Shown piece by piece: positions 17,363 to 38,879 of a stretch of DNA of 40,690 bases. Position 1 is the stretch's first letter. Every line of letters starts with the position of its first letter. Position numbers and translations under genes: made by a program. The notes beneath the pieces are model-generated. The model did not search any database and was not told the origin of the DNA. It worked only from the letters and a program-made list of their open reading frames with translations. This DNA comes from Thiotrichaceae bacterium (GTDB lineage: Bacteria > Pseudomonadota > Gammaproteobacteria > Beggiatoales > Beggiatoaceae), in the NCBI GenBank assembly GCA_016745055.1, contig JADGDF010000018.1, positions 1 to 40,690 of the forward strand. The letters run 5' to 3'.

Positions 17363-17797
17363 AGCCATACTAATCCTATCTGCAGTATTTTTTATACTTT
17401 CGTGTCGTTCGGCAAAATATTTAAGTTTATAAGCTATTGGTAAAATCATTGGTACGAATTTGCAACCTGCACCATCACGTTTTGGCAACTTTAAAGTGTG
17501 ATGGTCGAAGTTACAAACTTGAATTGATTTTGGTAAGAGCAATATTTTATTGAATATAGATTTTTACTAGATTATTAACTATATTAATATTAGTAAATAT
17601 AAAAGTCACTTTAAATTTCAACTATTGAAACTTAACGTATTTTTTTACACTCATAAACAATCCCTTGATATCCTTCCTAAATAAATCTTTACCTTATTAT
17701 TTCAAGATATTAAAAATAACAAAAAATAGTAATATATTGTCCTAAAAGGCGTTTAAATTATTCAAGAAGGGTGTTATTTTCTTTTAGGAAAGAACAT
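17363..17797. other. Intergenic region before the LRR gene
   Basis: About 430 bp without a gene. It contains a long imperfect inverted repeat at 17460-17516 (listed separately) and a very AT-rich stretch that should carry the promoter of the leucine-rich-repeat gene. AGGAAAGA at 17786-17793 is the ribosome binding site that decides the start of that gene. Confidence 0.5.
17460..17516. repeat. Long imperfect inverted repeat (possible MITE relic)
   Basis: TTGCAACCTGCACCATCAC (17460-17478) and GTGATGGTCGAAGTTACAA (17498-17516) are inverted copies matching at 15 of 19 positions, with a 19-bp centre. No T-run follows on the plus strand, so it does not look like a simple terminator. A miniature transposable element or dispersed repeat is possible. 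Confidence 0.45.
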
Positions 17798-20700
17798 ATG
17801 ATAAAAATCCTCAATTCACATCGAATTCCATCAACAATCTTGTTCTTAGGATTGTGGTTTGGATACCTAAATACCGCATGCGCCGCGACAGATTGTTCTA
17901 CTGTCACAGACATATCCCAAATGGAGTGCGAGTCGTTATTGCAATTTTACCATCAGACGGATGGCGCTAATTGGTACAACAACGAAGGTTGGAATGTTAG
18001 CAATGAACCTTGTCAATGGCGTGGGATTACTTGTGACAATAACAGTGTTGTAGAAATTTCTCTCCGCGTTAATCTGTTGAAAGGCCAGATGCCTGATTTG
18101 ACAGGCTTACCCAATTTACAAAAGCTTTTTTTGAATCATAACCAGCTGAGGGGAACCTTCTCCGATTTGGCAGGACTCGATGACTTACAAGAGATTCATC
18201 TTGACAACAACCAATTTACCGGAGAAATACCTGATTTGAGAGATTGGCCTGGTTTACCGATGTTGAGTATTAGGGGCAATCAGTTCACAGGGAGTATTTG
18301 CAACCTTGTCACAGAAATTTCTCCAATTGAGTGTGAGTCATTATTGCAACTTTATCACAGTACTGATGGTGCCAATTGGATAAAGAATGATAGTTGGAAT
18401 ATTACCAACATCCCCTGTAGTTGGCATGGGATTACGTGCGAAAATGATAGTGTTGTTGAGATTAAGCTAAGTGGAAAATATACAGCAGATAATAATCTTG
18501 TAGGAACCATTCCAGATTTTATTGGCTTACCTAACTTGAGAACTCTCTTTATGTCGGAAAATTTTAAGCTGACAGGTGAAATACCCAATTTCAGCGGCTT
18601 GCCTAGTTTACAGACACTAAATCTTGAACGGAATAAGCTAATTGGAGAGATTCCAGACTTCAGTCAGTTATCTAATTTGCAGACACTCAACCTTGAATGG
18701 AATAAATTATCAGGAACAATCCCAGATTTCAGTCAGTTACCTAATTTGCAAACGCTTTCTCTCTCTAATAACGAACTATCAGGGCTAATTCCTGATTTCA
18801 GTCAGTTGCCTAATTTGCAAATACTTTCTCTCTCTGGTAACCAATTAACGGGGCTAATTCCTGATTTCAGTCAGTTGCCTAATTTGCAAATACTTTCTCT
18901 CTCTGGTAACCAATTAACGGGGCTAATTCCTGATTTCAGCTATTTACCCAATTTGCAAACATTTTCTCTATTTAGTAAGCAACTAACGGGGCCAATTCCA
19001 GATTTCAGTCATTTGCCTAATTTGCAAGCGCTTTCTCTATCTAGTAACCAACGAATTAGTAAGCAACTAACGTGGTCAATTCCAGATTTCAGTCATTTGC
19101 CTAATTTGCAAGCGCTTATTATCTCTAGTTTTGGTGAGCAATTAACGGGACCAATTCCTGATTTCAGTCATTTGCCTAATTTGCAGACACTTTATCTTAG
19201 ATGGAATAAGCTAACGGGACCAATTCCAGATTTCAGTGGGTTACCTAATTTGCAAAAGCTTGATCTTAGAGCTAATAATCTAACTGGGTCCATACCTAAT
19301 TTTAGCAATTTGCCTGATTTACAATATCTTGACTTGCATTACAATCAATTGAAGGAACCTATTCCTAATTTCGACCTCTTACCCAATTTGCAGTTCTTTA
19401 ATGGTAAAAATAGACCTGTTTCCAAGATCGGCGGGCCTTTCACGGGATGTAATGCTGTGAAAGAAATATCTCAAGTGGAGTGTGAGTCACTGCTACAACT
19501 TTATCACAGCACTGATGGAGACAATTGGAGATATAATGAAGGGTGGAAAGTAACTGATAGACCTTGTCATTGGTATGGTATTACCTGTGAAAATAACGGT
19601 GTCGTCAAAATTACTTTATCAGGATATTATGATGATACTAATGAATTAGACCTTTATGTGAGTGATAACCTTGTTGGCACTATTCCTGATTTTCATGGCC
19701 TACCTCATTTACAAACGCTTTCTCTTAAGGGGAATAAACTGACGGGCACTATTCCTGACTTCAGTCATATACCTAATTTGCAAGAACTTGATTTGGGGAG
19801 AAATCAGCTAACTGGCACCATTCCTGACTTTAGTCATGTGCCTAATTTGCAAGAACTTGATTTTGGGGGAAATCAGCTAACTGGCACCATTCCTGACTTT
19901 AGTCATGTGCCTAATTTGCAAGAACTTGATTTTGGGGGAAATCAGCTAACTGGCACCATTCCTGATTTTAGCAATGTGCCTTATCTACAGAGTCTTAATC
20001 TGAGTGAAAATCAATTGACAGGATCAATTTCTGATTTTAGTCATTTACCTAATTTAAAAACGATCATTTTTGAGAACAATAAACTGACAGGACAAATACC
20101 TGACTTCAGTCATATACCTAATTTGCAAATACTTGCCCTTAATGATAACAAACTGACAGGGCGAATCCCTGATTTCAGCGCTTTACCTAATTTAGTAATG
20201 CTTTATCTGAAAGGTAATCAACTGACTGGGCTTATTCCTAACTTTGATGGCTCACCTCATTTGTTGATACTTTTTCTTGATGATAATCAACCAAGGCAAT
20301 CAACTAATTGCAGTATTGTTAAAGATATGTCTCAAATGGAATGTGATTCCTTATTGCAACTTTATCATAATACAGGTGACTGGGATTATAACCATGGCTG
20401 GAATGTAACTAATACACCTTGTCTTTGGGCAGGCATTACTTGCGAAAATAGCGAGGTAGTCAAGATTGATTTAGATTATGCTCAACTAACAGGTAAGATA
20501 CCTAATTTCATTGGCTTACCTAATTTGCGAGAGCTTAGTCTTGAATGGAATAATTTAACAGGTTCAATACCTAATTTTAGTGGTCTTGCCAATTTGCAAC
20601 ATCTTGACCTAAGTTTCAACCAATTGACTGGTACACTCCCTAATTTCAATGGAATGCCAAATTTGAGGACGCTTGGTTTTGACGGCAATCAATTGGAAGG

Positions 20701-22348
20701 GACAATTCCTAACTTTAGTAATTTCCCAAATTTACAAGAAATTTATCTCTATGAAAATCAACTGACTGGTACACTCCCTGATTTCGGCGGAATGCCCAAT
20801 TTGAGGGTACTTCATCTCAGTGACAATCAATTGGAGGGGGCAATCCCTGATTTTAATCACCTTCCCAATTTACAAACACTTTATTTCGATGAAAATCGAC
20901 TGACAGGAACCCTTCCTCATTTTAGTGCATCACCTAACTTAAAAGAGCTTCGTTTTCAGGACAATCAGCTGACTTCTGAAAACCATTCAGCAAACATATA
21001 TTTATTATTATCTGGCGAACAGTTCAAAGAATATTCCTCCTTTGTCAGAATTACCAATATCACGCGTAAACAAATCACCGTTAGCGCAACTTTACGTGAT
21101 GAAACAGGTCAAGTCTTGGGACAAGCGGATGCACCGATTTTAACCTTGGGCGTACGAGCCACTGGAGTGTTAAGCATGCTCAAACTTCAGGGCTTACTCA
21201 ATAGTCCTGATTGGAACGGTGTGGCCTGGTTAGAAGTCTCAGCACCTGTAGATAGTATTCGCGTGATGAATATGTTGCGAAGCCCGACTACGCTCACTGA
21301 TTTAAGTCTGGTTGAAAACAAGTTTGCCTATAACCTGCCAAGCTCAACCAACCAACAGGATGAAATGTACCTTATTCTTGCCAATCCAACCGATGACAGT
21401 ATGCTAAACATTACAGCCACAGTGTATAACAAAGAGGGCGTGGTTCAAGGCGGTGCTGATAGAGTATTGGCAGCAGAACTGGCGCCTAAATCCATGAAAA
21501 TCATTACGGCGAGCATGTTAGAACAACTGATGGGAAGTTCCCCTTGGACAGGCCGGGGATGGCTTGAAATTACCAGTAGCCACAAAGAATTAAAATTAAT
21601 GAATTTACTGATGAGCAAATCCTCAGCTACTATTACCAACATGAGTCGTGCGTCAGATAAAGCGATCAATAATTTACCAGGTACGACTAATGGCAACGGT
21701 GATACCGCCTTTATCAGAATGATTAATACCACCGGAGAAACGCGAGAAGTTCGTGGCACTTTGCACCATCAAGAGGGGCATATTTTAGGCAATAAAAACA
21801 GTGTTCTCGTGGCGGCGCTTGCTCCTTACTCAATTTACAGCATGGACATGGCGGACTTGGAAGCCAAAATAGGTACAGCACCTTGGACAAAACGGGCAAG
21901 ACTCATTCTAACTGCTCCCTCTTCAGGTGTTAAATTGGCTGCAACCATTCGCAGTCCTTCAGGAACGGTTACCAATACCAGTGTTGTTTCAACCACCAAT
22001 GTCTTGTACAACGTTCCTGGCTCCATCAATGGCAATAAAGATATTGGATTTGTCCGTATTACCAATACCAATGGTTACCCTGTTCCGATTATAGGAGTGT
22101 TATATCATATGAATGATATGAATGCTATTATATTAGGCCGTTCTGAGGTTACATTGATTGATTCTCTCCCCCCTGCCGGAACAAAAACACTGTCTATTAC
22201 CCAACTTGAAACTTTGTTTGGCACCACTCCGTGGACAGGCCGTGCCCGTTTGGTCATTACTTCTCCTACCAACAACATTGAACTGATGATGATGGTTAGA
22301 ACAAAGAATGGCACGCTGACTAATTTAAGCGGTGTTGTAGGAAATTAG
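17798..22348 (+). CDS. Very large secreted leucine-rich-repeat protein
   Basis: A 1516-residue exported protein. It has a signal peptide (STILFLGLWFGYLNTACA, cut near residue 30) and four Cys-containing N-cap modules resembling plant LRRNT_2 caps (ECESLLQLYHSTDGANW, then PC.W.GITC), starting near residues 31, 168, 550 and 838. Each cap heads a block of 23-residue repeats (LPNLQTLSLSGNQLTGLIPDFS), about 30 in all. Residues ~1062-1516 form four tandem ~110-residue modules with a recurring pattern of FIRITNT, a Leu-Ala-Pro segment, LE..(I/L)G..PWTGRARL and a Ser/Thr-rich end, probably beta-sandwich domains. No sortase, PEP-CTERM or autotransporter end is visible. The likely role is surface binding or adhesion. 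The open frame begins at GTG 17771, but the ATG at 17798 has AGGAAAGA upstream. Confidence 0.88.
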   Translation: MIKILNSHRIPSTILFLGLWFGYLNTACAATDCSTVTDISQMECESLLQFYHQTDGANWYNNEGWNVSNEPCQWRGITCDNNSVVEISLRVNLLKGQMPDLTGLPNLQKLFLNHNQLRGTFSDLAGLDDLQEIHLDNNQFTGEIPDLRDWPGLPMLSIRGNQFTGSICNLVTEISPIECESLLQLYHSTDGANWIKNDSWNITNIPCSWHGITCENDSVVEIKLSGKYTADNNLVGTIPDFIGLPNLRTLFMSENFKLTGEIPNFSGLPSLQTLNLERNKLIGEIPDFSQLSNLQTLNLEWNKLSGTIPDFSQLPNLQTLSLSNNELSGLIPDFSQLPNLQILSLSGNQLTGLIPDFSQLPNLQILSLSGNQLTGLIPDFSYLPNLQTFSLFSKQLTGPIPDFSHLPNLQALSLSSNQRISKQLTWSIPDFSHLPNLQALIISSFGEQLTGPIPDFSHLPNLQTLYLRWNKLTGPIPDFSGLPNLQKLDLRANNLTGSIPNFSNLPDLQYLDLHYNQLKEPIPNFDLLPNLQFFNGKNRPVSKIGGPFTGCNAVKEISQVECESLLQLYHSTDGDNWRYNEGWKVTDRPCHWYGITCENNGVVKITLSGYYDDTNELDLYVSDNLVGTIPDFHGLPHLQTLSLKGNKLTGTIPDFSHIPNLQELDLGRNQLTGTIPDFSHVPNLQELDFGGNQLTGTIPDFSHVPNLQELDFGGNQLTGTIPDFSNVPYLQSLNLSENQLTGSISDFSHLPNLKTIIFENNKLTGQIPDFSHIPNLQILALNDNKLTGRIPDFSALPNLVMLYLKGNQLTGLIPNFDGSPHLLILFLDDNQPRQSTNCSIVKDMSQMECDSLLQLYHNTGDWDYNHGWNVTNTPCLWAGITCENSEVVKIDLDYAQLTGKIPNFIGLPNLRELSLEWNNLTGSIPNFSGLANLQHLDLSFNQLTGTLPNFNGMPNLRTLGFDGNQLEGTIPNFSNFPNLQEIYLYENQLTGTLPDFGGMPNLRVLHLSDNQLEGAIPDFNHLPNLQTLYFDENRLTGTLPHFSASPNLKELRFQDNQLTSENHSANIYLLLSGEQFKEYSSFVRITNITRKQITVSATLRDETGQVLGQADAPILTLGVRATGVLSMLKLQGLLNSPDWNGVAWLEVSAPVDSIRVMNMLRSPTTLTDLSLVENKFAYNLPSSTNQQDEMYLILANPTDDSMLNITATVYNKEGVVQGGADRVLAAELAPKSMKIITASMLEQLMGSSPWTGRGWLEITSSHKELKLMNLLMSKSSATITNMSRASDKAINNLPGTTNGNGDTAFIRMINTTGETREVRGTLHHQEGHILGNKNSVLVAALAPYSIYSMDMADLEAKIGTAPWTKRARLILTAPSSGVKLAATIRSPSGTVTNTSVVSTTNVLYNVPGSINGNKDIGFVRITNTNGYPVPIIGVLYHMNDMNAIILGRSEVTLIDSLPPAGTKTLSITQLETLFGTTPWTGRARLVITSPTNNIELMMMVRTKNGTLTNLSGVVGN
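18782..18919 (+). repeat. Perfect 69-bp tandem duplication in the LRR gene
   Basis: 18782-18850 and 18851-18919 appear identical base for base. Each encodes one 23-residue repeat (GLIPDFSQLPNLQILSLSGN...). A third, diverged copy follows from 18920. Identity at synonymous sites points to a recent duplication by slippage or recombination. Confidence 0.85.
19763..19969 (+). repeat. Three near-identical 69-bp tandem repeats in the LRR gene
   Basis: Three units start at 19763, 19832 and 19901. The second and third differ at about one base; the first differs at a few. Each encodes the repeat SH(I/V)PNLQELD with NQLTGTIPDF. This is a second, independent array of recently copied leucine-rich repeats. 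Confidence 0.85.
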
Positions 22349-22640: not shown

Positions 22641-24788
22641 CTACTCTTCTTTCAAACAACGGTTTAAATAAACCCGTGCAGCTTCATCTGTTGCATTAAT
22701 GGATAACACTTTTTCAAAACAATCTCGTGCTCTATCAATTTCTTGACCATGATAATAAACACATCCTTCTTCAAAATTGTCTAATGTTTTAGATTTTAGT
22801 TCAATAACTTCGGGTGTATCGCCATCAAAAACCTCATAAACAGTCACTGGCTCTGATTTGCCTTTAACGGTTACACGATCAATCACGCGAATTTTGTAGC
22901 GGTTAATGTCTTCTAATTTTTGATAAGTTTGATCGGTAATTAACAACGCTGCCCCATAAGTTTTAGTTAAGTTTTCAATTCGTGCTGCCAAATTCACAGC
23001 ATCTGCAATGACTGTACCATCCATACGATTAGGTCCTCCTACTGTCCCTAACATCAGAGGACCAGTATTGAGACCAATGCCAATTTGAATGGATTGATAA
23101 TTAGCTTCTTGTAATAATAAATTGTATTCGACCAAAGTTCTTAACATATCAATGGCACCGCTAATTGCATCATCTGCGCTGGTTGGAAATAAAGCCATGA
23201 TGGCATCTCCAATATATTTATCAATAAATCCACGGTGTTGCGCAATAATTGGTTCCATTTGGCCTAAGTAAATATTAATAAAGTCAAAGTTTTCTTGAGG
23301 ACTCATCCTTTCTGATAACGCAGTAAAACCACGAATATCAGAAAATAAAATGGTCATCTCTTTTTCAACATGATCACCTAGTTGTACATCTAATACACTT
23401 TCTTTATTGAGTAATTTCAAAAATTCATTAGGAATAAAACGCTCATAAGCTTTATTGAGCTGAAATAACTCATGGGTAAAGCGTTCTCTTTCCGCTTCTG
23501 ATAATTCAGGCGTTTGACAACGATCAATATAAGCTTTTGCTGCGCCATCTTCTGGATCTGCTTCTAATACTTTTTCAAAATATCCTTGGGCTTTCTCAAA
23601 CTCCTTGCCGTGATAAGCGACACAGCCTTCTTCAAAGTTTTTAAGGGTTTTTTCTTTATTTTCTCTTTCAGATTTAGCATCTGCATCAAAAACTTCATAA
23701 ACCATCACAGATTGAGATTTACCTTTCAATTTTATCCGATCAATGACCCGAATATCATACTTACTTGGATCAGCTAGTTGGCTATAGGTTTGCTCAGTAA
23801 TAAATAAAGGTGCTTCATATTTTTTAGTCAAATCTTCAATATTTGCAGCCAAGTTGACGCCATCGGCGATGACTGTGCTATCCATACGATTTTTTCCACC
23901 CACTGTGCCTAGCATTAATAAATCTGTATTTATGCCAATCCCAATGGAAATAGTTGGATAACCCGCTTCAATAAGTAATTCATTGTAATTAACTAATTCT
24001 TTTAACATGGCAATAGCACCCTGTACAGCATCGTCGGCACAGGTGGGAAATAATGCCATAATGCCATCGCCCATGTATTTATCAATGAATCCATTATGTC
24101 TGGCAATGACAGGTTCCATTTGGCCTAGATAAATATTGATAAAATCGAACTTTTCTTCTGGGGTCATTTTTTCTGATAACACGCTAAAACCACGAATATC
24201 TGAAAATAATACTGACATTTCTTTTTCAACTAAATCGCCCAGTTGCACATCAACAAGACTGTCTCGACCTAAAAATTTTAAAAATTGATGAGGTACAAAA
24301 CGCTTATAAGCTTCATCCAATGTAATGAATTTTTGCTCATAATGTTTAAATTGCTCTTCCTTTGCTTCTAATTCCTCTTGATGGAGATGTACCTGTTGTT
24401 GCAATTGATGAATGGTGATGTAAGTATGAACACGATTTAAAATTTCTGTTTTTTCAAATGGTTTGATAATGTAATCATTTCCTCCCAGTTCAAACATTTT
24501 AGCCCGATCAGTTTCTTGAGTCAGTTCAAACATGAAAATGATAGGAATATGTTTAATTTGAGGGTCGGCTTTAATATGTTTACAAATATCAAAGCTGTCT
24601 ACTTCTGATATAACAACATCTAGTAAAATTAAATGGGGATGAGCGGATTGAACAATTTTAAGGGCATTTTCCCCATTACGTGCAACTAACACCTCATAAT
24701 TGTAAGCAGTTAATAATTCAAATAAAGTGCTCACATTTTCCGGCATATCATCCACGATAAGGATTGTTGCTGCGGTTTGTGTGGTCAT
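22641..24788 (-). CDS. Response regulator with two tandem class III adenylate cyclase domains
   Basis: A 715-residue protein: receiver (1-125), coiled coil (~128-165), cyclase 1 (~185-350), TPR-like segment (~378-410), cyclase 2 (~472-635) and another TPR-like segment (~665-700). The cyclase-TPR unit is an internal duplication. In the receiver, Asp57 and Lys109 are present but the conserved Ser/Thr is Phe87. Both cyclases keep the two metal aspartates (Asp197/Asp241 and Asp484/Asp528), and the Lys237/Asp309 and Lys524/Asp596 pairs that select ATP over GTP. Cyclase 2 has transition-state residues Asn599 and Arg603 (VNLAARIE); cyclase 1 has Asn312 but Asn316 in place of arginine (VNLAANIE). The probable product is cAMP. 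No kinase gene adjoins it and there are no membrane segments. Confidence 0.9.
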   Translation of the reverse strand: MTTQTAATILIVDDMPENVSTLFELLTAYNYEVLVARNGENALKIVQSAHPHLILLDVVISEVDSFDICKHIKADPQIKHIPIIFMFELTQETDRAKMFELGGNDYIIKPFEKTEILNRVHTYITIHQLQQQVHLHQEELEAKEEQFKHYEQKFITLDEAYKRFVPHQFLKFLGRDSLVDVQLGDLVEKEMSVLFSDIRGFSVLSEKMTPEEKFDFINIYLGQMEPVIARHNGFIDKYMGDGIMALFPTCADDAVQGAIAMLKELVNYNELLIEAGYPTISIGIGINTDLLMLGTVGGKNRMDSTVIADGVNLAANIEDLTKKYEAPLFITEQTYSQLADPSKYDIRVIDRIKLKGKSQSVMVYEVFDADAKSERENKEKTLKNFEEGCVAYHGKEFEKAQGYFEKVLEADPEDGAAKAYIDRCQTPELSEAERERFTHELFQLNKAYERFIPNEFLKLLNKESVLDVQLGDHVEKEMTILFSDIRGFTALSERMSPQENFDFINIYLGQMEPIIAQHRGFIDKYIGDAIMALFPTSADDAISGAIDMLRTLVEYNLLLQEANYQSIQIGIGLNTGPLMLGTVGGPNRMDGTVIADAVNLAARIENLTKTYGAALLITDQTYQKLEDINRYKIRVIDRVTVKGKSEPVTVYEVFDGDTPEVIELKSKTLDNFEEGCVYYHGQEIDRARDCFEKVLSINATDEAARVYLNRCLKEE

Positions 24789-36831: not shown

Positions 36832-36909
36832 TGGCGCGCCCGGAGAGATTCGAACTCCCGACCTTCTGGTTCGTAGCCAGACACTCTATCCAAACTGAGC
36901 TACGGGCGC
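36832..36909 (-). tRNA. tRNA-Arg (anticodon ACG)
   Basis: Read on the minus strand, acceptor arms GCGCCCG (36909-36903) and CGGGCGC (36842-36836) pair fully. The anticodon stem-loop CTGG-CTACGAA-CCAG gives anticodon ACG (reads CGU/CGC/CGA after A-to-I editing). The T-arm contains GTTCGAATC. The 3' CCA is encoded (36834-36832). Confidence 0.95.
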
Positions 36910-36922
36910 ATTTTTTAAAATT

Positions 36923-37015
36923 TGGCGGAGAGGGAGGGATTCGAACCCTCGACAGGCGTTTTAGACCTGTGCCTCCTTAGCAGGGAGGTGATTTCAGCCG
37001 CTCATCCACCTCTCC
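36923..37015 (-). tRNA. tRNA-Ser (anticodon GCU)
   Basis: On the minus strand the acceptor is GGAGAGG (37015-37009) paired with CCTCTCC (36933-36927). The anticodon stem-loop CCTCC-CTGCTAA-GGAGG gives GCU, reading AGC/AGU. A long variable arm (ACAGG...CCTGT) is typical of serine tRNAs. The T-arm has GTTCGAATC and CCA is encoded (36925-36923). It is 13 bp upstream of tRNA-Arg on the same strand, so the two are probably cotranscribed. Confidence 0.95.
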
Positions 37016-37262: not shown

Positions 37263-37277
37263 GTAGAAAATACGTAC
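37263..37277 (+). repeat. 15-bp direct repeat, copy 1 (possible operator)
   Basis: GTAGAAAATACGTAC, identical to 38550-38564, with a central TACGTA palindrome. It lies ~360 bp upstream of the regulator gene. The other copy is 52 bp upstream of the small exported peptide gene, so a shared regulatory site is possible. Confidence 0.5.
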
Positions 37278-37512: not shown

Positions 37513-37532
37513 TGTCGTTAGAAATGACGACA
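37513..37532. promoter_or_regulatory. Inverted repeat upstream of the XRE regulator
   Basis: TGTCGT and ACGACA arms around an 8-bp centre (TAGAAATG), ~110 bp before the regulator start. The half-site ACGACA recurs near 37585 and CGACACGACA at 38501-38510, so it could be an autoregulatory operator. This is inference only. Confidence 0.35.
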
Positions 37533-37639: not shown

Positions 37640-38473
37640 ATGGTTACACCATATCACCAACTACGTCAAATAAAACATGTGACAGGTTGGTCTCAAGAAC
37701 GCATTGCTCGCGAAACAAATTTAGGTTTAAGGACAATTGGCAGAGTTTATGGGGATCCTACCTACGATCCCACGGAAGTTACTAAACGATTGATTGCTCA
37801 ATTACATAAGAAAATCATCGTTTCTCCTTTTCCTGAATATGTTGATTGGCTATTTGAACGCTATGATTATTGGAAAGAATCCTTAAGTAAGCGTGATTTT
37901 GGCAAAGAGCAAGATACCCTTGAGCACTTACTCCTGAACCATAAAGCTATTGACTCTATGGAGTTAATTGCCTGCAGATTGTGCTGGTTATTAGGTCATA
38001 TTCATTACGATCGCGCTTTTTACCTAAAGAGAAATACTCTGCAATCCGCCATTGCAGCTCAGGAATGGTATCAAAAAGCCTTGGAAATCATTGACCATTT
38101 CAGTGATGAAAGCCTTATCGTACAAAGATATAAAATCCAGCAATGCGTTGTTTCCACGATGTTTAATAGCTGTGAATCAGGTCGTTGCGATAATGAAAAA
38201 ATTCGTCAATGGTTTGCAGACATGAGCTATCTAAATATAGTCCGCTCGGTACTTGATGTCGAGCCTTGGAATTGGGTTGTTGCTAAAAATGGATTGGTTG
38301 CAGCCTCTATTTTACGTCTGCGAGATGAATGTTTATTTTTCTGGAAAGCAATGCAGAAAGTAGATAAACGCTTTAAAGACCTAGATTTCGCGCCTTCTCA
38401 GAAAGATGATTACTGGTCTTCCATCAGTGATGATCCAGACTTGAGTTGGTTTGTTAATTTAGTGAGAAGTTGA
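37640..38473 (+). CDS. XRE-type HTH regulator with helical-repeat domain (RRNPP-like?)
   Basis: A 277-residue cytoplasmic protein. Residues ~4-57 look like an XRE/Cro helix-turn-helix: YHQLRQIKHVTGWSQERIAR then ETNLGLRTIGRVYGDP. The rest is mostly helical; TPR-like character is visible at ~113-170 (LGHIHYDRAFYLK, AIAAQEWYQKALEIIDHFSD). An N-terminal HTH followed by helical repeats is the plan of RRNPP peptide-responsive regulators, but I cannot assign it to a known family. The ATG at 37640 is preceded by GGAGGAAC, a strong site, which favours it over the GTG at 37625. A small exported peptide gene follows 142 bp downstream on the same strand. Repeated CGACA words on both sides suggest self-regulation. 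Confidence 0.7.
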   Translation: MVTPYHQLRQIKHVTGWSQERIARETNLGLRTIGRVYGDPTYDPTEVTKRLIAQLHKKIIVSPFPEYVDWLFERYDYWKESLSKRDFGKEQDTLEHLLLNHKAIDSMELIACRLCWLLGHIHYDRAFYLKRNTLQSAIAAQEWYQKALEIIDHFSDESLIVQRYKIQQCVVSTMFNSCESGRCDNEKIRQWFADMSYLNIVRSVLDVEPWNWVVAKNGLVAASILRLRDECLFFWKAMQKVDKRFKDLDFAPSQKDDYWSSISDDPDLSWFVNLVRS

Positions 38474-38549
38474 TTTTTCCTTTATAAAGTAATTAGTTAG
38501 CGACACGACAAAATACTTTGGCACACTAAGTGCACTTAAGAAATTAACC

Positions 38550-38564
38550 GTAGAAAATACGTAC
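38550..38564 (+). repeat. 15-bp direct repeat, copy 2 (possible operator)
   Basis: The second copy of GTAGAAAATACGTAC, 52 bp upstream of the peptide ATG. Here AATAC is followed by an inverted GTATT 7 bp later (38567-38571), giving a small palindrome that copy 1 lacks. Confidence 0.5.
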
Positions 38565-38615
38565 AGAGTATTCGTCGTTGACGCTAAATAGTTACTAAAA
38601 AAGGAATAATCAATC

Positions 38616-38738
38616 ATGAAAAAATTTGTCTTTGCTTTGAGCATCGTATTAGGTATTTTATTTTCCGCTGCCGCTTCCGCTGATATGGAACGTGTAAGTG
38701 AACCAGAAAAACAAGCAAAAGTACCAAACGACCGTTAG
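38616..38738 (+). CDS. Small exported peptide (40 residues)
   Basis: This is a 40-codon gene. The N-terminal 22 residues are a textbook Sec signal peptide: MKKF, the hydrophobic core VFALSIVLGILF, then SAAASA with an AxA cleavage site. Cleavage would release the 18-residue, highly charged peptide DMERVSEPEKQAKVPNDR. AAAAAGGAA lies 11-15 bases before the ATG and a strong terminator stem follows 30 bp after the stop, so it looks like a complete transcription unit. It resembles no protein I know. Its place beside the HTH/helical-repeat regulator suggests a secreted signal, but a small periplasmic stress peptide is an equally simple reading. Confidence 0.7.
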   Translation: MKKFVFALSIVLGILFSAAASADMERVSEPEKQAKVPNDR

Positions 38739-38768
38739 TCATTACGTTATTTTCAAAATATTTTGCAT

Positions 38769-38799
38769 AAAAAAAAGGGGAAATAATTCTCCTTTTTTT
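38769..38799. terminator. Rho-independent terminator after the peptide gene
   Basis: GGGGAA (38777-38782) and TTCTCC (38787-38792) pair (one G-T) around ATAA, extended by A6-8 on the left and T7 (38793-38799) on the right. It has the form of a strong, possibly two-way, terminator. Confidence 0.85.
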
Positions 38800-38879
38800 A
38801 TGAATAGTATTTAAGGCCACTCTTTTATTTCAAGGTGATTTTCAACACAGTAGTAATTGCAGAATAATTCAAGCAAACG

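Follow-up and report, generated by a model that had tools for sequence, protein, structure and literature searches.

The locus examined here raises the question of whether a helix–turn–helix (HTH) regulator and a small secreted peptide encoded beside it form a peptide-signalling pair in a gammaproteobacterium. The initial annotation of the window, by which we mean the whole stretch of 40,690 nucleotides analysed, had proposed such a pair with the layout of the RRNPP systems. The features on which the following account is based are listed below.

37640..38473, + strand: regulator and putative receptor gene, 277 residues; N-terminal HTH followed by a TPR-like helical C-terminal domain
37640..37816, + strand: HTH domain, residues 1–59; helices 4–15, 19–26, 30–38 and 46–59 in the model, weak HTH_31/HTH_3 matches
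37826..38470, + strand: predicted TPR-like helical domain, residues 63–277, the putative peptide-binding part (AlphaFold2 model, Foldseek, VIA-align)
38616..38738, + strand: peptide precursor gene, 40 residues; an open reading frame that recurs beside homologous regulators
38616..38681, + strand: predicted Sec signal peptide MKKFVFALSIVLGILFSAAASA; its type is kept among homologues, its sequence is not
38682..38699, + strand: hexapeptide DMERVS at the predicted mature N-terminus, the putative signal core (motif conservation in the precursors)
38766..38802 (about), + strand: intrinsic-terminator-like hairpin 3′ of the peptide gene (−14.4 kcal/mol, z = −5.05)

Gene pair and surroundings

Both open reading frames are present as annotated. 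The ATG of the regulator is preceded by GGAGG, and its start aligns with those of its homologues. The small gene follows on the same strand after exactly 142 bp, with AAGGA ahead of its ATG and a U-run after the hairpin that ends it; the ribosome-binding site and terminator that had been claimed for it are thus both found. Its product consists of MKKFVFALSIVLGILFSAAASA followed, after the predicted cleavage site, by the 18 residues DMERVSEPEKQAKVPNDR. A match to TIGR04429 (Phr_nterm, E = 0.06) covers the signal sequence only and was not used. Upstream of the regulator lie two tRNA genes on the opposite strand (36832–37015) and downstream of the pair an unrelated GDSL-lipase-like gene, also on the opposite strand, so that the pair stands alone.

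Predicted fold of the regulator

Pfam detects the HTH only weakly, with HTH_31 at E = 0.18 in the window regulator and HTH_3 at E values down to 0.0019 within the family, but the domain is clear in the predicted structure. The AlphaFold2 model, calculated with nine sequences, is all helical (mean pLDDT 91.8, pTM 0.87), with an HTH at residues 4–59 and eleven helices thereafter. A TPR-like fold for this remainder, which had been described as helical and partly TPR-like, was set beforehand as a test of the proposal, and a TPR-like solenoid is what was predicted. The best Foldseek and VIA-align matches of the second part of the regulator are generic TPR and TPR-like solenoids and 14-3-3. The match to KLC1-TPR has a Z score of 12.9 over 175 residues and is generic; according to the notes accompanying the tools, scores at this level are common for helical repeats. 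Further matches include sNASP, LGN and consensus TPRs, many of which bind peptides. ComR (PDB entry 5fd4) is found at rank 10 in Foldseek (E = 0.079), and no RRNPP receptor is present among the best 50 VIA-align matches listed, which is uninformative either way. Pfam scans of nine family members gave no TPR family at E ≤ 1, and a profile search of the PDB with the regulator returned nothing meaningful and no RRNPP chain. The modelled fold agrees with that of a peptide receptor and by itself leaves a relation to RRNPP unproven. The regulator–peptide fusion of genome G026, read through the regulator stop codon, was folded as a docking test; the peptide tail had a pLDDT of 47–59 and no confident placement, which neither supports nor refutes binding. 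One homologue gave a 14-bit match to PADLOC PDC-S32, which we set aside as not meaningful.

Conservation of the pair

Ten full-length homologues of the 277-residue regulator were found in nine genomes of one GTDB family, the Beggiatoaceae-type sulfur bacteria. Those in the eight further genomes share 47–53% sequence identity, with two in G016, and lengths in the family range from about 275 to 317 residues. The carriers include Candidatus Halobeggiatoa HSG11, Candidatus Venteria ishoeyi HSG18, two Thiomargarita MAGs, a Thioploca MAG and Thiotrichaceae/Thiotrichales MAGs. Scanning the genome contigs with a single protein sequence detected no relatives; with an alignment, eight were detected.

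Behind seven of the ten regulators, those of the window and of six other loci, lies a same-strand small open reading frame with a signal peptide. In G002 and G034 the two genes overlap by ATGA; in G007, G016:C65, G028 and G026 they are 3–9 bp apart. The precursors at these six loci have 44–62 residues. The paralogue G016:C54 has no peptide gene of its own, and none adjoins the regulators of G014 and G031. Beyond the pair, no gene is common to all of the neighbourhoods; since the other neighbours differ among the genomes, it is the regulator with its peptide gene that makes up the conserved unit, and their recurrence together at six other homologous loci places the arrangement in the window beyond chance. 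The pair is therefore confirmed as real and conserved.

Some further observations were made at these loci. Directly 3′ of the peptide gene in G002, G034 and G028 (loci L002, L004 and L006) are open reading frames of about 60–80 residues which appear helical by eye and among which no mutual similarity was found. There is also a broken regulator copy beside a transposase-like open reading frame (G059:C216:11504–11786, locus L088), with no peptide motif near it.

The hexapeptide core

All precursors show n-, h- and c-regions and AxA-type sites in their sequences. Directly after the predicted cleavage site, each of the seven adjacent precursors carries the core [DE]M[EGD]RVS; around the site the residues read ADMERVS, AEMDRVS, ADMGRVS or SDMGRVS, and a broken second copy in G026 retains ADMGRLS. 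The expectation that the peptide would be conserved in close relatives is thus borne out for this core. When the precursors are aligned, the only residues common to them are Met1, Lys2 and M-x-R-V-S: the signal and tail sequences differ from one precursor to the next, and the tails vary in both length and sequence.

A coding-pattern search found secreted precursors with the motif that are unlinked to the regulator in G014 and G031. One precursor in each of these genomes contains DMGRVS twice, sixteen residues apart (that of G031 is MRTLSALSLLLLLLLSPASWAASEDMGRVSKDEGSQTTTEDMGRVSLSAQAGAKQG), and G014 has an additional precursor with a single copy. Across 14 copies of the motif, arginine is encoded by four codons (with one lysine), valine by four and the Glu/Asp/Gly position by seven, and the four positions that follow the motif hold 6 to 13 different residues. 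Because the codons vary synonymously, it is the hexapeptide itself, at the protein level, on which selection acts. The 18-residue mature peptide of the initial annotation is the predicted product as described, but only its first six residues are conserved, and the product as a whole is therefore probably not the signal. We did not find the motif in the open literature searched.

Among 43 genomes of the family, a secreted motif-bearing open reading frame occurs in nine of nine with an intact regulator and in none of 34 without one (Fisher's exact test, 1.8e-9, uncorrected for common descent). With the DM-only pattern eight of the nine regulator genomes are positive (6e-8, likewise uncorrected for common descent); this pattern, DM[EDG]RVS, found no secreted open reading frame in the 34 genomes lacking an intact regulator and would miss variants of the EM type.

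That the motif adjoins the cleavage site in all of the precursors could also be explained if DMERVS were only a processing site and the signal sequence, or a fragment of it, were the pheromone, as for the enterococcal lipoprotein-derived pheromones. We regard this as very improbable: the signal sequences are not conserved beyond their hydrophobic type, and the two-copy precursors repeat the motif internally, away from the signal peptide.

Distant homologues and other peptides

Profile searching identified full-length distant relatives of the regulator (26–27% identical) in nine of ten genomes of genus g95, which belongs to another gammaproteobacterial family. One g95 subclade, represented by three loci in three genomes (L092, on G241:C1; G418:C40; G417:C64), has an ATGA-overlapping gene for a lipoprotein of about 85 residues ending in ...QSDDMERLD, an ending reminiscent of the motif, on another type of carrier. 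The second g95 subclade of regulators has no recognizable peptide. No further full-length relatives occur in a phylum sample of 398 genomes, and there is no sign of a phage-borne module, as viral contigs and phages contained no relative of the regulator.

A tblastn search against plasmids gave two alphaproteobacterial relatives, from Xanthobacter dioxanivorans and Rhizobium sp. 32-5/1, and HHalign profile comparison with the two plasmid proteins gave a probability of 97.8% (E = 1e-12). On the Xanthobacter plasmid (NZ_CP063364.1, L142:5897–5989) a precursor of 30 residues is encoded 14 bp behind the regulator homologue with GGAG ahead of it; it comprises a signal peptide, MSMLKYTLFAAAILMGSAAPVLA, and after the predicted cleavage site the heptapeptide GIGGTSV. 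On the Rhizobium plasmid (NZ_CP120640.1, L143:5327–5357) a nine-codon open reading frame without a leader, MTKGIGTSV, overlaps the stop codon of the regulator homologue, whose N-terminal HTH part lies in another frame owing to an apparent frameshift. This locus may be a degraded copy or a leaderless variant. Both small open reading frames are absent from the gene tables distributed with the plasmid records. Distinct pherotypes would be expected to combine homologous receptors with differing cores, and GIGGTSV of Xanthobacter is a candidate for a second pherotype.

Candidate operators

A 15-nucleotide word is repeated upstream of the two genes of the window.

37263..37277, + strand: first copy of the candidate operator, GTAGAAAATACGTAC, 377 bp upstream of the regulator start
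38550..38564, + strand: second copy of the candidate operator, GTAGAAAATACGTAC, 66 bp upstream of the start codon of the peptide gene

When at most one mismatch is allowed, exactly two copies of this word exist in the 4.65-Mb genome, and both are at this locus. Of 20,000 trials with simulated sequence matched in composition, 40 produced a shared word of at least 15 nucleotides. We treat the word as a candidate operator. The recognition helix of the window regulator is unlike that of its relatives, and the relatives share another box, CTTTTGNATANNNCATTTGA, upstream of their regulators. In G007 the regulator-upstream box is also present at two other sites, at one of which (CTTTTTCATATAGCATTTGACG; L127:3167–3339, G007:C94) it lies approximately 150 bp ahead of a gene for an nSTAND1-WD40 protein of 1662 residues, a possible member of the regulon. 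As a separate observation, 37513–37532 holds an imperfect inverted repeat, TGTCGTTA-GAAA-TGACGACA, some 110 bp ahead of the regulator; CGACA words related to it are found repeatedly in front of both genes of the pair.

The adjacency of the two genes, and the candidate operator that precedes the peptide gene, would equally be seen if the regulator controlled the expression of the peptide without binding it, the peptide being an envelope microprotein or an antimicrobial. This explanation seems improbable to us, because apart from a varying signal peptide only six residues are kept and the tails are free in length and sequence; the tandem hexapeptides and the heptapeptide product of Xanthobacter are also better suited to a small ligand. 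A peptide that binds the regulator thus remains the preferred reading.

Proposed circuit

In our view the window pair is probably a two-gene peptide-signalling module in which a receptor and a pheromone work in the manner of RRNPP systems. The small gene would encode a precursor exported by Sec, from which signal peptidase would release a short peptide starting with DMERVS, possibly to be trimmed further to the hexapeptide. This peptide would accumulate in the periplasm, and also outside the cell if it crosses the outer membrane, and an oligopeptide permease of the Opp/Dpp type would return it to the cytoplasm. The window's own genome has four genes for oligopeptide-binding proteins (SBP_bac_5). 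There the peptide would bind the TPR-like domain on its concave side, to which the invariant residues N100, N176, N217, W210 and W212 may contribute, and would alter how the regulator binds operators close to its own gene, to the peptide gene and to other targets.

Since these bacteria are diderm, a peptide exported by Sec reaches the periplasm first and needs an outward route to act between cells. For this reason a cell-autonomous sensor of export and import is a serious rival to quorum sensing. Here the peptide would again be the ligand of the regulator, but would report on Sec export, periplasmic proteolysis or the state of peptide import, as an export–import timer, and not on population density. 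The diderm envelope speaks for such a role, as Sec delivers the peptide to the compartment in which Opp/Dpp binding proteins work, and the sequence evidence is the same as that for RRNPP-like signalling. The two-copy precursors, however, raise the dose of the peptide, which fits a secreted signal, and overall we consider the cell-autonomous role rather unlikely.

Comparison with known systems

The computational signature of RRNPP systems comprises a small propeptide of 10–100 residues, Sec secretion, a receptor of 250–500 residues, a TPR HMM match and direct gene neighbourhood; the survey that applied it covered Firmicutes and viruses only (PMC10075063). The propeptides found here have 40 residues in the window, 44–62 in the adjacent homologues and 30 in Xanthobacter, the window receptor has 277 residues, and the genes are neighbours for seven of ten homologues and unlinked in two genomes; no TPR profile was matched in nine members (Pfam, E ≤ 1). 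The RRNPP-type layout of the initial annotation thus stands as regards size, adjacency and receptor length, whereas membership is unsupported. Given the lack of a sequence match, and a predicted fold that matches TPRs generically, we describe the pair as working like RRNPP and do not file it as a member.

With the RRNPP(A) systems (PlcR–PapR, NprR–NprX, Rap–Phr, ComR–XIP and AimR–arbitrium) the pair shares a small precursor of predicted Sec type beside the putative receptor gene, a TPR-type helical domain (as modelled), a predicted DNA-binding HTH and a short linear peptide core. It differs from them in several respects: it is found in Gammaproteobacteria and on alphaproteobacterial plasmids; the sequence of the regulator resembles neither RRNPP receptors nor TPR HMMs; the core is at the mature N-terminus and not the precursor C-terminus, with the exception of the Xanthobacter peptide GIGGTSV; there are unlinked precursors and precursors with two copies; and an outer membrane stands in the way of the peptide. 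Whether these systems make up a proteobacterial class of peptide pheromones with intracellular receptors, independent of RRNPP in sequence, appears to us evenly balanced. Such a class would be characterized by a conserved hexapeptide core at the N-terminus, by precursors with one or two copies of it, some of them additional and unlinked, and by pherotypes that differ between bacterial classes (DM[EG]RVS versus GIGGTSV).

Among the short linear peptide signals, one from a gammaproteobacterium is the extracellular death factor NNWNN of Escherichia coli (PMC7616896). Unlike the present peptide, that factor acts with mazEF. It has no adjoining HTH–TPR receptor gene and is not known to have a dedicated Sec precursor gene beside it. 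The LuxI/LuxR-type and other proteobacterial small-molecule quorum-sensing systems resemble the pair in their possible biological role, but here the ligand would be gene-encoded and exported by Sec, with no synthase.

Peptide quorum sensing by export and reimport has been described as a trait of Firmicutes, and proteobacterial signals as small molecules (PMC10075063, PMC4873490). Within the open full-text literature, RRNPP was found together with Pseudomonadota only in PMC10075063. The novelty that had been claimed for a gammaproteobacterium therefore holds as far as this literature shows, and to the same extent such a peptide-signalling pair is unreported from Gram-negative bacteria. If the proposal is correct, this would be the first export–reimport pheromone circuit of diderm bacteria, and genera which form filaments and dense mats would have their first candidate means of communicating between cells. 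The proposal specifies a ligand of exactly six residues, which is open to synthesis and testing, and raises the question of how a pheromone of this kind could operate across the outer membrane.

Two other genes of the window were noted. One, at 22641–24788 on the − strand, encodes a protein of 715 residues that begins like a response regulator and has two cyclase-like halves similar to each other, apparently the result of an internal duplication. The other, at 17771–22348 on the + strand, encodes a secreted leucine-rich-repeat protein of 1525 residues with several repeated LRR blocks.
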